Assembly (NCBI GenBank): GCA_030537195.1
Contig: JAUNOK010000020.1
Location: 1-51,807, forward strand
DNA: 51,807 bases
Direction: 5' to 3'
Origin: Eubacteriales bacterium
GTDB taxonomy: Bacteria; Bacillota; Clostridia; Lachnospirales; Lachnospiraceae
In this document: positions 16,158 to 20,861 of the stretch, piece after piece
How positions within the stretch are numbered: position 1 is the first letter of the stretch
Layout of the letters: each line of letters opens with the position of its first letter
Notes under the pieces: model-generated
What the model was told of the DNA's origin: nothing
Database searches by the model: none
Seen by the model: only the letters and a program-made list of their open reading frames with translations
Translations under genes and position numbers: made by a program

Positions 16158-17630
16158 CTATCTTCTGCGTCTGTTATGTCTTCTTTTTCTCTTGTTGTTC
16201 TGCGCCATTATGACTACTGTTATAATTATTGCAGCAACTATTACAACCACAATAACAACAAATATTACAACTATGCTGCTAGATTCTTTCTTTCCATTGA
16301 CATCTGATACTTTATTGTCTGCTGCCTGTGCATTGTCGTCTGATACCACATTTGCAGCATACTCTCTGTAAACAGTCTGGTTACACAGACTGCATGTTCC
16401 TGCTTCTATTCCATCTTTCTTGTCTGTTCCCGTAGCTTCTTTTACAACACTGTAATTGTCAACCTTATGCTCGTGTATTGTGTATTTATCTGAATATGTA
16501 TAACCACATGTGCTGCATGTATGTGTTGTGTAGCCGAAATCCGCTGCTGTTGCTTCTGTCACTGTGTCAGTGTATGAAGGATTGCTGCACATTTCAGGAA
16601 GGAGTGTAACTGAATAATCATATGTCTCATTTCTCTTGAAATCTGATGTGAAGCCTGAATATGCATATGTCCAGTTCATGACCTCACCCATATTAGCCTG
16701 ACAGTATGCACGGCGGTCTGTATTGTCCTCGAAAAATGTTATCATTCCCTTGACTTTGTTGTTAAGCACTTCTCCCTGATATGTCTGTGACAACTCATAT
16801 GGATATACCATATACATTCCGACAAGTCCGCCATCATGCACATAGCCGTGGTCTGAATCATATCCGTCTATTGTTATAGAACAATTTCTTATGTTAAGGA
16901 AACCTGCTGCGTAAGCACCGCCCATAAACTGCTCATCTCTTACTTCTGCATCTGTATCAACGCATACGAGTGTTACATCTGTAGTGATGCCGTCAAGATT
17001 ACCGCTTCCAAATCCGGCAATTCCACCTGTTCCCCACATCTTAGCTGAATCTGTGAGTGACACATATGTATCCTTGATTGTACAGTCTGATATATCACTG
17101 TTATCTGCAAGTCCGGCTATTGGTGCTGCAAAACATGGCTCTGTTGTAGTCACTTCAACTCTCGCACCATATATGTTCAAACCTGTTACTTTCGCATCCT
17201 TAAGCATGCCAAAGAAACCTGCTCCGTATGTTTCGTACTCTTTTCTGTTACCGTCATAGGTCATCATTGTCTGCTTACTTACTGTCTTTACTGACAGGTT
17301 AAGTATGCTGTGCCCGTTACCATCAAATGTGCCTGAAAAATCCCAAGGTGTCCACTCAATTCCAGTCATATCAATATCAGTCATCAGCTTGTAATTACCT
17401 GTGACATTCTTTGCAGCTTCCACAAGCTCTGATGCTGTGCGGATTTCTGTGTACTCTGCTGCCGTACTTCCTGAATTCTCCGCTACGCTGCCTGCTGTCA
17501 CATTATTCCCTGTAACACTACTTCCTGTTGTCTGTGTATCTGCATTTGCCATATTAACCGGCAGGGCTGTTGCTGCAAGTATTACTGCGGCTATCGCTGC
17601 GGCTTTTTTAATGTATGATTTGTTAAACAT
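16158..17630 (-). CDS. Membrane-anchored surface protein with beta-helix-like N-terminal half
   Basis: About 490 residues. A signal peptide (residues 1-31, ending MANA) precedes a Thr/Ser/Gly-rich stretch. Then comes a region of TDIDMTG / GTFDGNGHSILNLSV units like GLUG-type or pectate-lyase-like surface repeats. Next are two zinc-ribbon-like CxxC units, CSTCGYTYSDKY and CSLCNQTVYREY, a repeat style common in Lachnospiraceae surface proteins. A very hydrophobic Val/Ile helix follows and then a basic tail ending RRHNRRRR. There is no LPXTG or TGD sorting motif, so it is membrane- rather than wall-anchored. AAAGG lies 7 nt before the ATG; the frame extends to 17672 without support. Function unknown. 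Confidence 0.75.
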   Translation of the reverse strand: MFNKSYIKKAAAIAAVILAATALPVNMANADTQTTGSSVTGNNVTAGSVAENSGSTAAEYTEIRTASELVEAAKNVTGNYKLMTDIDMTGIEWTPWDFSGTFDGNGHSILNLSVKTVSKQTMMTYDGNRKEYETYGAGFFGMLKDAKVTGLNIYGARVEVTTTEPCFAAPIAGLADNSDISDCTIKDTYVSLTDSAKMWGTGGIAGFGSGNLDGITTDVTLVCVDTDAEVRDEQFMGGAYAAGFLNIRNCSITIDGYDSDHGYVHDGGLVGMYMVYPYELSQTYQGEVLNNKVKGMITFFEDNTDRRAYCQANMGEVMNWTYAYSGFTSDFKRNETYDYSVTLLPEMCSNPSYTDTVTEATAADFGYTTHTCSTCGYTYSDKYTIHEHKVDNYSVVKEATGTDKKDGIEAGTCSLCNQTVYREYAANVVSDDNAQAADNKVSDVNGKKESSSIVVIFVVIVVVIVAAIIITVVIMAQNNKRKRRHNRRRR

Positions 17631-17700
17631 ATTAGTGCCTTTCTTTCCTCTTAATACAATCTCTACTGCCATTAATTAAGTTGTTCTTCAACCGGGTTTG

Positions 17701-17729: not shown

Positions 17730-17814
17730 GGGGGTATTGTGTTTTAGTTTGGGGATTATGAGAGGCGAGAGGAGGGGAAGACGGACGCCGTGTTAATTGG
17801 CATATTTCCCTGCA

Positions 17815-17924
17815 CAGACACGCTCTCGCTCGATGAAAAACGTAGCGGTACTAAACTCGCCCGGAGGCAGCCGCCAACGGCGGCTCCCCCGTCTCGTTAA
17901 GTGCCGACGTTTTCCAACGGTCTG
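17815..17924 (+). repeat. 110-bp CAGAC/GTCTG module, element copy 1
   Basis: Starts CAGAC and ends GTCTG and contains an internal hairpin (GCCGCC AAC GGCGGC). The outer 47 nt (17815-17861) and 32 nt (17893-17924) are complementary to 18237-18283 (43 of 47) and 18173-18204 (30 of 32). Confidence 0.85.
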
Positions 17925-18172
17925 CTCCAGGAAATATACACAATTAACACGGCTGGCTTTCTCCCAACCTCTTTCAATCACGAAACTAAACCAGCCCTTC
18001 GGTATCGCTTCGCTCACCGGCGATAGTGGGTCTTGGTGGGTGTGCCTTCATTCAACAACCTCCTGGTCACACACCCCCGCCGGTACCTCCAGATGAGCTT
18101 GCGATATCTGGACGGGGTGCGACATCCGGGAGGCGACAACGTGAGCGGCGGGCGGGTGGATAGTGTTGGTTT

Positions 18173-18283
18173 CAGACCGTTGGAAAACGCCTGCACTTAA
18201 CGAGCTAAGGCTGTCCGCCTTCGGGCGGCTGCCTGTGGCGAGTTTAGTACAGCTGCGTTTTTCATCGAGCGGGAGCGCGTCTG
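18173..18283 (-). repeat. 110-bp CAGAC/GTCTG module, inverted copy in element 1
   Basis: Reverse complement of the module at 17815-17924, with a different sequence in the central hairpin (CCGCC TTCG GGCGG) that keeps the ability to fold. It is enclosed by the GGATAGTGTT / AACGACACTATCTCC pairing. Confidence 0.85.
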
Positions 18284-18358
18284 AAAACGACACTATCTCC
18301 CGCCAGCAGCGTCCCACTGCCACAACCTCCCGTATGTCACATCACCTCACCCCACATA

Positions 18359-18895
18359 TCACAACTCAAACTTAAGTATCTCACAATTCTTTATCTTAAA
18401 AGCCGAAAACTCCTCATTTCCCATATCTTCAAAATATGACTTCACCATTCTTGCAATCCCATTATGCGCAACCAAAAGATATGTTTTATCAGGCTGCGCC
18501 TTGATATCATCAAGCAGATTATATATACGCTGTGCAAGATGAAGCATTGTCTCACCTCCATCAAAGCTGCATATGAAGTTGCATTTGGCTTTTGCAAATT
18601 CTTCTCCATCTCTTGGTGTTGACTCATACTTACCAAAATTCTGCTCCTTAAGTCTTATCTCTTCACGGGCAGGTATTCCTGTAATCTCAGATACATGAAG
18701 TGCTGTATCTTTCGCTCTTATAAGTGGTGAATACAGAATTTCATCTATGTGTATTCCTTCTGCTAAAATCTTCTTTCCTAACTCTATTGCCTGTTCATGC
18801 CCTAAATCTGTAAGTGGTGAATCTGTTGCACCACATATCTTGTTCTCGACATTCCAGACGGTCTGGCCATGTCGGGTGAAATATACTGTTCCCAT
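18359..18895 (-). CDS. Histidine phosphatase family protein (phosphoglycerate mutase-like)
   Basis: 178-residue member of the histidine phosphatase superfamily. The phosphohistidine motif FTRHGQTVWN is at residues 6-15, LTDLGHEQA follows, the catalytic Glu is probably in the RLKEQNFGKYES region, and the second His is in LLVAHNGIARM. The size and motif pattern fit the CobC/GpmB/PhoE group of small phosphatases; the substrate cannot be decided. GGAGG lies 7 nt before the ATG. Its last codons (Glu-Leu-stop) belong to the sequence shared with the end of the AAA+ ATPase gene, because a copy of the G+C-rich element begins there. It lies between the two element copies. Confidence 0.87.
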   Translation of the reverse strand: MGTVYFTRHGQTVWNVENKICGATDSPLTDLGHEQAIELGKKILAEGIHIDEILYSPLIRAKDTALHVSEITGIPAREEIRLKEQNFGKYESTPRDGEEFAKAKCNFICSFDGGETMLHLAQRIYNLLDDIKAQPDKTYLLVAHNGIARMVKSYFEDMGNEEFSAFKIKNCEILKFEL

Positions 18896-18968
18896 TGCGG
18901 GTCCTCCTTTTCTCCTTGTTATGGTTGGTGGATGACGGACGCCATGTTAATTGGCATATTTCCTTCTG

Positions 18969-19077
18969 CAGACACGCTCTCGCTCGATGAAAAACGTAGC
19001 GGTACTAAACTCGCCCGGGGGCAGCCGCCAACGGCGGCTCCCCGCCTCGTTAAGTGCCGACGTTTTCCAACGGTCTG
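18969..19077 (+). repeat. 110-bp CAGAC/GTCTG module, element copy 2
   Basis: Equivalent of 17815-17924, one base shorter next to the central hairpin. Pairs with 19326-19436. Confidence 0.85.
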
Positions 19078-19325
19078 CTCCAGGAAATATACACAATTAA
19101 CACGGCTGGCTTTCTCCCAACCTCTTTCAATCACGAAACTAAACCAGCCCTTCGGTATCGCTTCGCTCACCGGCGATAGTGGGTCTTGGTGGGTGTGCCT
19201 TCATTCAACAACCTCCTGGTCACACACCCCCGCCGGTACCTCCAGATGAGCTTGCGATATCTGGACGGGGTGCGACATCCGGGAGGCGACAACGTGAGCG
19301 GCGGGCGGGTGGATAGTGTTGGTTT

Positions 19326-19436
19326 CAGACCGTTGGAAAACGCCTGCACTTAACGAGCTAAGGCTGTCCGCCTTCGGGCGGCTGCCTGTGGCGAGTTTAG
19401 TACAGCTGCGTTTTTCATCGAGCGGGAGCACGTCTG
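19326..19436 (-). repeat. 110-bp CAGAC/GTCTG module, inverted copy in element 2
   Basis: Equivalent of 18173-18283, with one visible substitution (GCGCGTC to GCACGTC) near its outer end. Confidence 0.85.
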
Positions 19437-19508
19437 AAAACGACACTATCTCCCGCCAGCAGCGTCCCACTGTCACAACCTCCCGTATGTCACACCTCAC
19501 CTCACACA

Positions 19509-20861
19509 TCACAACTCAATCCCCACCAGATCCTCCTTCTCCAGCATTGCCAATATATTCTTATCAACATCCTTCATCCCAACTATCCTCGTTGCCTGAT
19601 TAGATATCGCTTTTTCAAGATAGTTTCTCACATCTCTCGCATTGGCATACCCTTCCGGTTTATTAGCCACACGCTCTGCAAAGAATCTTCTCGCTTCTTC
19701 TAAGGCGTCTCTTGATAACATGTATTCCTGCTTCTTGCAGTTATTTATAAGTATCTCAACCTCTTCCTCGGCTGTGTAGTCCTCAAAGTTGATAAATTTG
19801 TTGAATCTTGAACGCAGTCCCGGGTTGGAATCCAAGAATTCTTCCATAAGTTCTGTATACCCTGCCACTATCACAACTAAGTCATCTCTGTGGTCTTCCA
19901 TTCCTTTTAATAATGTATCTACTGCTTCCTGACCGAAGTCGCCCTGTCCTTTACCATTGGTTAATGTGTAGGCTTCATCGATAAAAAGCACACCACCAAG
20001 TGCAGACTCTATTACTTCTGCGGTCTTTGCTGCAGTCTGACCGATATATCCGCACACAAGCCCTGACCTGTCTACTTCTACAAGGTGACCTTTGGAAATT
20101 GCACCTATTGCCTTATATATTCTGGCAAGCAGTCTTGCAACTGTCGTCTTTCCTGTTCCTGGATTTCCCATGAATACAAGATGCTTGTTGACGCTTGTCT
20201 GCTTCATTCCCATCTGCTCACGCATTTTCTGGACTTTAAGAAGATTAATAAGCGCATTAACATCTTCTTTAACTGCAGTAAGTCCTGTCAGTGAATTAAG
20301 CTCTGCAATAAGTTCATCGGCGTCCGGTTCTTTCTCTTCTGCTGTCTCTGCCTGTATTGCCGCACTCTTGTAATCAGGACGCAGCAGACCGTATGATTTA
20401 AGATTCTCGTCCAACATCACACAATATGATGATAAAACATTTATCTCAGCCTCAGTACTCTCGGTGTTCGCAGCCAGATATTCCTGTCCGAGCTTCCGGT
20501 AGGCTTCTGCCAGCGTACGCGCCTCTTTGTTGTCATATCGGTCGTTCTTAATCTTGTGACCGGCATTGGCAAGTATGAAATACTTAAATGTCTCCGGCAC
20601 TCTTGTGATATATCCTGCGCCAAGCATGTTGCGGTTCTTGATATCAGCCGCCATCGATGCGCTCACATCAAAACCCAGTTTCTTCTTTATAAATGCTTTC
20701 TCTTCCTCACCATATCTTCCATCTATCATCGATATGTATATAAGAAAATGCAGCAGCTCCTTCTTAAGATTGTCACGAAGCTTTGCATTTGTAGCAAGTT
20801 TCACAACACCGTTCTGCTCTATGTAATCACACATTTCATAGCATAAATTAATTGAATCCAT
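19509..20861 (-). CDS. AAA+ ATPase, CbxX/CfqX (SpoVK-like) family
   Basis: 450 residues. The N-terminal 170 residues are helical and resemble a TerB-type domain (LLHFLIYISMIDGRYGEEEK). The AAA+ module follows: Walker A GNPGTGKT (232-239), Walker B VLFIDEA (291-297), sensor 1 VVIVAGYTE, and the arginine-finger region LRSRFNKF. These are hallmarks of the CbxX/CfqX family, which includes the Rubisco activase CbbX and sporulation protein SpoVK; such proteins remodel partner proteins using ATP. The partner here is unknown. It starts 37 nt after the anion permease gene. Its last codons GAG TTG TGA are shared, base for base, with the phosphatase gene end because an element copy begins there. Confidence 0.88.
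   Translation of the reverse strand: MDSINLCYEMCDYIEQNGVVKLATNAKLRDNLKKELLHFLIYISMIDGRYGEEEKAFIKKKLGFDVSASMAADIKNRNMLGAGYITRVPETFKYFILANAGHKIKNDRYDNKEARTLAEAYRKLGQEYLAANTESTEAEINVLSSYCVMLDENLKSYGLLRPDYKSAAIQAETAEEKEPDADELIAELNSLTGLTAVKEDVNALINLLKVQKMREQMGMKQTSVNKHLVFMGNPGTGKTTVARLLARIYKAIGAISKGHLVEVDRSGLVCGYIGQTAAKTAEVIESALGGVLFIDEAYTLTNGKGQGDFGQEAVDTLLKGMEDHRDDLVVIVAGYTELMEEFLDSNPGLRSRFNKFINFEDYTAEEEVEILINNCKKQEYMLSRDALEEARRFFAERVANKPEGYANARDVRNYLEKAISNQATRIVGMKDVDKNILAMLEKEDLVGIEL

Follow-up and report, generated by a model that had tools for sequence, protein, structure and literature searches.

Two near-identical, G+C-rich blocks in a Lachnospiraceae genome are likely, in our assessment, to be head-to-head pairs of units from a family of miniature transposable elements that occurs across Lachnospiraceae, encodes no protein and forms hairpins. 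The blocks lie in the window, the whole 51,807-nt stretch of DNA analysed, and flank a histidine phosphatase gene (Table 1). They are direct copies of about 590 bp, as the original prediction had described; their alignment (580 identities, 8 mismatches and 9 gap columns) gives 97% identity, not the ~98% it had estimated. Its other descriptive claims largely stand. G+C content is 0.568 and 0.566 in the blocks against 0.391 in the remaining window, and the blocks do follow the stops of two same-strand genes, beginning at the phosphatase and AAA+ ATPase stops; the sequence common to both extends across these stop codons. The 100 bp flanking the two blocks are unrelated (28% and 24% identity), and only short open reading frames cross the blocks. 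Folding is more stable than in dinucleotide shuffles (z −9.58 on the plus strand and −10.32 on the minus strand, with 0 of 100 shuffles as good). The many nested inverted pairings first reported resolve into two separate hairpin units of opposite orientation.

Table 1. Coordinates of the blocks, their units and cores, and neighbouring genes in the window. R1 is the covariance model of the core.
Feature	Position	Strand	Details
Composite element 1	17776..18370	+	Left unit, ~150-bp spacer and right unit, head to head; 595 bp
Left hairpin unit, element 1	17768..17972	+	Inverted repeat; outer arms 17787-17799 / 17941-17953
Conserved core, left unit 1	17807..17933	+	R1 103.1 bits
Right hairpin unit, element 1	18121..18339	-	Ends by eye: GACATCCGGGAGG / CCTCCCGTATGTC
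Conserved core, right unit 1	18164..18291	-	R1 100.6 bits
Composite element 2	18930..19519	+	590 bp; 97% identity with element 1
Conserved core, left unit 2	18961..19086	+	R1 99.2 bits
Conserved core, right unit 2	19317..19444	-	R1 97.7 bits
Histidine phosphatase gene	18359..18895	-	Host gene between elements 1 and 2; Pfam His_Phos_1, E 1.7e-38
AAA+ ATPase gene	19509..20861	-	Host gene, upstream of element 2
504-aa host gene	16158..17672	-	Downstream of element 1; no Pfam match at E 0.001

Each unit is built from an imperfect palindromic core of ~110 nt set within palindromic outer arms. Most cores start with CAGACRCGCT and finish with GGTCTG. The core recurs elsewhere in the window's genome and in its relatives; the arms vary by copy yet tend to stay complementary. 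Among 88 copies in genome G036 there are 73 distinct 14-nt left arms, and arm positions 1-12 are each Watson-Crick paired in 65 to 80 copies, with all 14 positions paired in 21. The outer arms of the left unit of element 1 are present in genomes G017 and G002 too; the outermost ends of the window's units are judged by eye only. We dropped the idea that arms are copied from the target, since those of G130, G009 and an Agathobacter MAG look by eye like diverged copies of one end sequence. A pattern taken from G009 gave no match in G130 with 3 mismatches allowed.

The family is widespread in Lachnospiraceae. We built R1 from 39 copies of the core found by DNA similarity to the window, and it identified 23 copies in the window's genome. 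Copy counting across the family, proposed when the blocks were first described, was applied to 250 genomes sampled evenly across Lachnospiraceae and yielded matches in 105 of them, or 104 of 249 genera; this survey scored 14 candidates per genome, making copy numbers lower bounds. R1 also matched 13 of 196 genomes in an order-wide sample, and all 13 belong to the same family. G036 carries at least 150 copies, with all 150 scored candidates matching R1. Analyses of this genome used 89 of 115 matches, leaving out 15 in six earlier loci and 11 that were cut or weak. Near-identical cores are scattered among sites, and contig ends fall inside units.

The repeats correspond to nothing catalogued in the collections we searched. 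Rfam, including its ROOL, GOLLD and group II intron families, gave 0 matches at gathering score in the window, in keeping with the earlier statement that the sequence is no recognised RNA, and 0 in six loci of relatives; at E values up to 10 nothing rose above chance (best E 1.6). The window element had no match among plasmids and phages, and viral contigs held no exact match to two core patterns. A literature search that missed most subscription papers found no description of this repeat family. The kind of element, a MITE or interspersed palindromic repeat, is already known; a folded core shared by unlike-ended backbones across a bacterial family is absent from the papers found and from Rfam.

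Relatives, rather than the window, support the original reading of a non-autonomous mobile element, through inverted ends, target duplications, presence/absence differences between sibling species and dispersal. Units in genome G246 are bounded by inverted ends (CACGGTAAACGCATG...) and total ~268 bp in most intact copies. Their 10-bp target duplications are perfect in 7 of 22 candidates and match at 8 or more of 10 positions in 13 of 22, compared with 0 of 462 cross-pairings; the candidate count keeps the best-matching end pair per place, a treatment that favours matches and was not given to the control, and includes 4 probably wrong end pairings. Units in the Agathobacter MAG have inverted ends unlike those of G246 (.TCCCATTTCGGAATTGTGTTC...) and total ~180 bp. 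There, 8-bp duplications at 6 or more of 8 positions accompany 16 of 37 anchored copies versus 5.3% of controls (10 of the 47 copies could not be anchored). Of the 28 combinations of offset and length that were compared, this one (offset −1, length 8) scored best; offset 0 with length 10 came second, at 27% versus 0.3%. Both genomes also contain core-deleted derivatives with intact ends. By eye, the ends of the backbones bearing the core look unrelated. Of the features of a MITE, the repeats show short length, lack of coding sequence and multiple copies, and, in G246 and the Agathobacter MAG, terminal inverted repeats at fixed ends.

Duplications of such kind are typical of DDE enzymes, and we propose that the units would be moved by a transposase supplied in trans and acting on the ends. 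No transposase with matching ends appeared among 88 G246 end sites, as judged by spacing, or in 365 kb of the Agathobacter MAG. In that MAG, 17 of 74 end sites have no core nearby, and beside these 17 we recognised no transposase among the open reading frames, judged by their first 60 residues.

Within the window's own genome, the units appear old and fixed. A target-duplication scan covered 18 of 23 copies there, 10 of 16 in G130, 10 of 14 in G009 and 86 in G036. In that order, it found 0, 1, 0 and 6 duplications at 10 bp (control means 0, 0, 0.2 and 5.2), 2, 0, 1 and 13 at 9 bp (0.8, 1.0, 1.2 and 11.8), and 0, 0, 0 and 4 at 8 bp (0, 0, 0.2 and 1.4). The first three genomes are therefore at control level and G036 shows at most a weak signal. 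Run on 10 G246 copies, the scan likewise detected no duplication, which shows how low its sensitivity is. Because the own genome gives no duplication signal, mobility is transferred to it from relatives. Of its 23 units, 19 sit where G002 or G017 also has one, with no sign of recent movement in the genus. Shared positions and the control-level scan together lead us to regard the window's units as old and fixed, in a family that is mobile elsewhere. Occupancy does differ in G009: its gap between the phosphatase gene and the next gene has no unit where the window, G017 and G002 have a pair, and it carries a unit before a citrate-transporter gene where those three have none.

Head-to-head pairing is the prevailing arrangement of close copies. 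Among pairs less than 700 nt apart, 32 of 38 face each other against an expected one quarter (p 3e-14 if independent), and the pairs are not independent: 24 come from G036, 8 from the window's genome and six were picked by hand, with G017 and G002 pairs excluded as counterparts. The pairs mostly do not lie between convergent genes; the 30 with both neighbours known comprise 20 co-directional, 7 convergent and 3 divergent settings. We considered composite transposons carrying genes between units and rejected them, as nine longer open reading frames between facing G036 units look mutually unrelated by eye. Of the G036 copies, 12 of 89 fall in an open reading frame by a simple caller.

Paired architecture also speaks against the large RNA that the original prediction offered as its other main reading. 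Each block consists of two inverted units, and the spacers of 17 facing G036 pairs look unrelated by eye beyond ~25 nt, so one transcript cannot carry both units in the same sense. A single 590-nt RNA is thereby rejected, and a new large RNA class is not supported as stated. Large ornate RNAs such as ROOL, GOLLD, HEARO and OLE resemble the blocks in size and strong folding. They are Rfam families, and the blocks differ from them in their two inverted units and in giving no Rfam match at gathering score.

At the scale of the single unit, the core is a conserved fold. The covariance check on collected copies, suggested with the original prediction, drew on 65 copies that span about thirty genera, with some MAGs besides, and 28 of 32 pairs of the core fold change on both sides. 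Paired cells reach 95.8%, versus 73.2% in shuffles (0 of 500 as high) and at most 39.0% in slid controls, in an alignment (A4) made by aligning to the model and so leaning toward its structure. The core includes a 2-bp mini-hairpin with a four-column loop, both pairs of which show two-sided change (columns 18-19 with 24-25: GC 59 and AU 4; CG 55 and UA 10). On the CAGAC-starting strand, G-U cells outnumber A-C cells 73 to 24; 38 of the 73 come from a single conserved wobble U-G (38 of 65 sequences), and the ratio is 35 to 24 without that column. The conserved entity is probably a folded single strand of one polarity, a reading that leans heavily on the one column.

Because the core covaries strongly and prefers one strand, a small structured module of RNA or single-stranded DNA made from the ~110-nt core is possible. 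Arm-to-arm copying during replication can also yield paired changes, so covariation alone is no proof of RNA. That the core is retained while ends change suggests that it serves the element itself. We suggest that the core would be selected as a folded single strand, either as single-stranded DNA in replication or as RNA after read-through, and that this selection most likely serves the element's own survival, not regulation of neighbours. More tentatively, and with the chances well against it, the core may be a folded and functional module, either RNA or single-stranded DNA and with the mini-hairpin at a three-way junction, that several unrelated transposon backbones took up and that spread through Lachnospiraceae. 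Such a cassette might aid its carriers, for example if it recruited a host factor, protected neighbours against transcription or controlled excision, and be kept while ends and arms were replaced.

One alternative is a REP/BIME-REPIN system, in which a Y1 (RAYT) transposase would mobilise inverted doublets of palindromic repeats in the form of single-stranded DNA. Our units share with REPINs and BIMEs the high copy number, extragenic placement, folded single strand with a preferred polarity (73 G-U against 24 A-C cells) and inverted doublets, which account for 32 of the 38 close pairs; alternating or inverted doublets are described in PMC2817692 and PMC3116915. The present units are much longer, however, at ~160-280 bp versus the 20-40 bp given for REPs in PMC3733652. 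A RAYT-type mobilising enzyme is unlikely: of 14 carrier genomes searched for Y1_Tnp (PF01797), 5 gave no hit, the window's included. Y1 enzymes would not be expected to leave target duplications like the 8- and 10-bp ones of this family. We accordingly hold this explanation to be unlikely.

Alternatively, the copies could be functional sites of a structured RNA (a 3'-UTR element, terminator-like stabiliser or small RNA) rather than transposon copies. Strong covariation that includes the mini-hairpin, the conserved wobble U-G and a sense bias relative to the 5'-side gene all agree with such a role. Within 150 nt of that gene, sense and antisense copies number 15:7 in the window's genome (22 copies), 34:8 in G036 and 6:2 in G246. 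Against this, the ratio is 5:5 in G130, and the bias is gone beyond 150 nt in G036 (18 sense, 28 antisense). It is likewise absent from 53 copies in other genomes, two each from G009 and G007 of the window's genus among them, with 21 sense and 19 antisense within 100 nt. Because the ratios vary by genome and distance, sense placement is no general rule, and we rejected the 3'-UTR function that the bias in the window's genome and G036 had suggested. The strand preference is weak once the single wobble column is removed, and target duplications, core-deleted derivatives and near-identical scattered cores all fit transposition. A structured RNA is thus improbable as the explanation of the copies. 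Least probable by far is that a long terminator-like palindrome belonging to no family was simply duplicated in tandem at this locus. This would account for the near-identity of the window's two blocks, but it is refuted by the 23 genomic copies and the 105 carrier genomes, which also rule out the lone tandem duplication that the original prediction had envisaged as its possible undoing.

As miniature transposable elements, the units most closely recall bacterial MITEs with folded cores, such as Correia/NEMIS, RUP and QMITE2 of Coxiella. These too are short, protein-less, intergenic and multi-copy, with inverted ends and a stable stem-loop, and QMITE2 target duplications of 7-9 bp, as given in PMC10969869, are similar in size to those of the present family. 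Here, by contrast, an internal core is conserved between unlike ends, duplication lengths differ and close copies as a rule face each other. ERIC and YPAL/RU-2 of enterobacteria are likewise short mobile repeats inserting between genes, but come from another phylum; PMC2229807 puts YPAL at 168 bp with duplications ranging from 3 to 26 bp and attributes to ERIC a presumed effect on mRNA stability. MITE transcripts form stable stem-loops, according to PMC10969869. By analogy with these related small hairpins, the present family may have an effect on mRNA stability or through a stem-loop transcript.

If our reading is right, a widespread repeat family, undescribed within our searches, shapes the intergenic DNA of a major gut bacterial family. 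Its copies seem to break draft assemblies, and their covariation makes them mistakable for regulatory RNA. A core conserved between unlike transposon ends would provide a testable case for what the interior of a MITE does. The repeats would also offer sites for recombination, as in the window.

The near-identity of the window's two copies appears to reflect local recombination. Genomes G017 and G002 have the same genes in the same order, including the same neighbours of the phosphatase gene, with a pair of units after the phosphatase gene and a single right-hand unit after the AAA gene; the locus thus holds three units in each of them and four in the window. The window's right units share 96.6% identity with each other and 75-78% with the corresponding units of G017 and G002, unlike the phosphatase gene, which is 92.9% and 88.3% identical to those of G017 and G002. 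The AAA-side units of G017 and G002 are closest to each other (94.3%). From these comparisons, conversion or unequal exchange in the window's lineage probably overwrote the AAA-side unit with a copy of the phosphatase-side pair. Element 2 would then have been copied from element 1 when the right-hand units already present in both gaps recombined. At C6:15462, too, a core has been replaced in place.

The unit with an exchanged core in the window's own genome has probably undergone local conversion, as judged by comparing the same locus in three species. The insertion site and the outermost arms are the same in all three; in the window's genome the core and inner arms belong to another subtype than in the two counterparts, L344 and L330, and resemble those of a unit 1.7 kb away.

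Cores are also lost outright. Derivatives that retain the inverted ends and lack the core occur in two carrier genomes, G246 and the Agathobacter MAG. Two or more distinct deletion junctions are represented among them, a pattern that hairpin slippage would be expected to leave. At three further Agathobacter loci no core comes after the end sequence, but a different repeat that these loci share; this is a second repeat family, adjoining the first or lying within it.

Three draft contigs of the copy-rich carrier G036 have position 1 within a unit. The repeat therefore seems to have broken this assembly, and copy numbers as counted are probably too low.

Coordinates of the features described
Feature	Genome	Location	Compared with
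Unit with exchanged core	G000 (window's genome)	C6:15462-15578 (L054)	L344, L330
Core-less derivatives	G246	L373, L374, L375, L376	
Core-less derivatives	Agathobacter MAG	L238:5792, L260:4978	
End sequence plus second repeat	Agathobacter MAG	L237:3059, L253:2299, L294:79	
Units at contig starts	G036	C11, C12, C7 (L171, L183, L186)	
~62-bp tandem repeats	G017, G002	L038:6070-6310, L039:5500-5640	
504-aa protein gene	Window	16158-17672	

A ~62-bp tandem repeat lies between the AAA and phosphatase genes of G017 and G002, relatives sharing this gene order, with about three and two copies, respectively, by eye; no copy was seen at the corresponding place in the window. The 504-aa protein encoded beside element 1 had no Pfam match at E 0.001, and the corresponding proteins of relatives have a very basic C-terminal tail.
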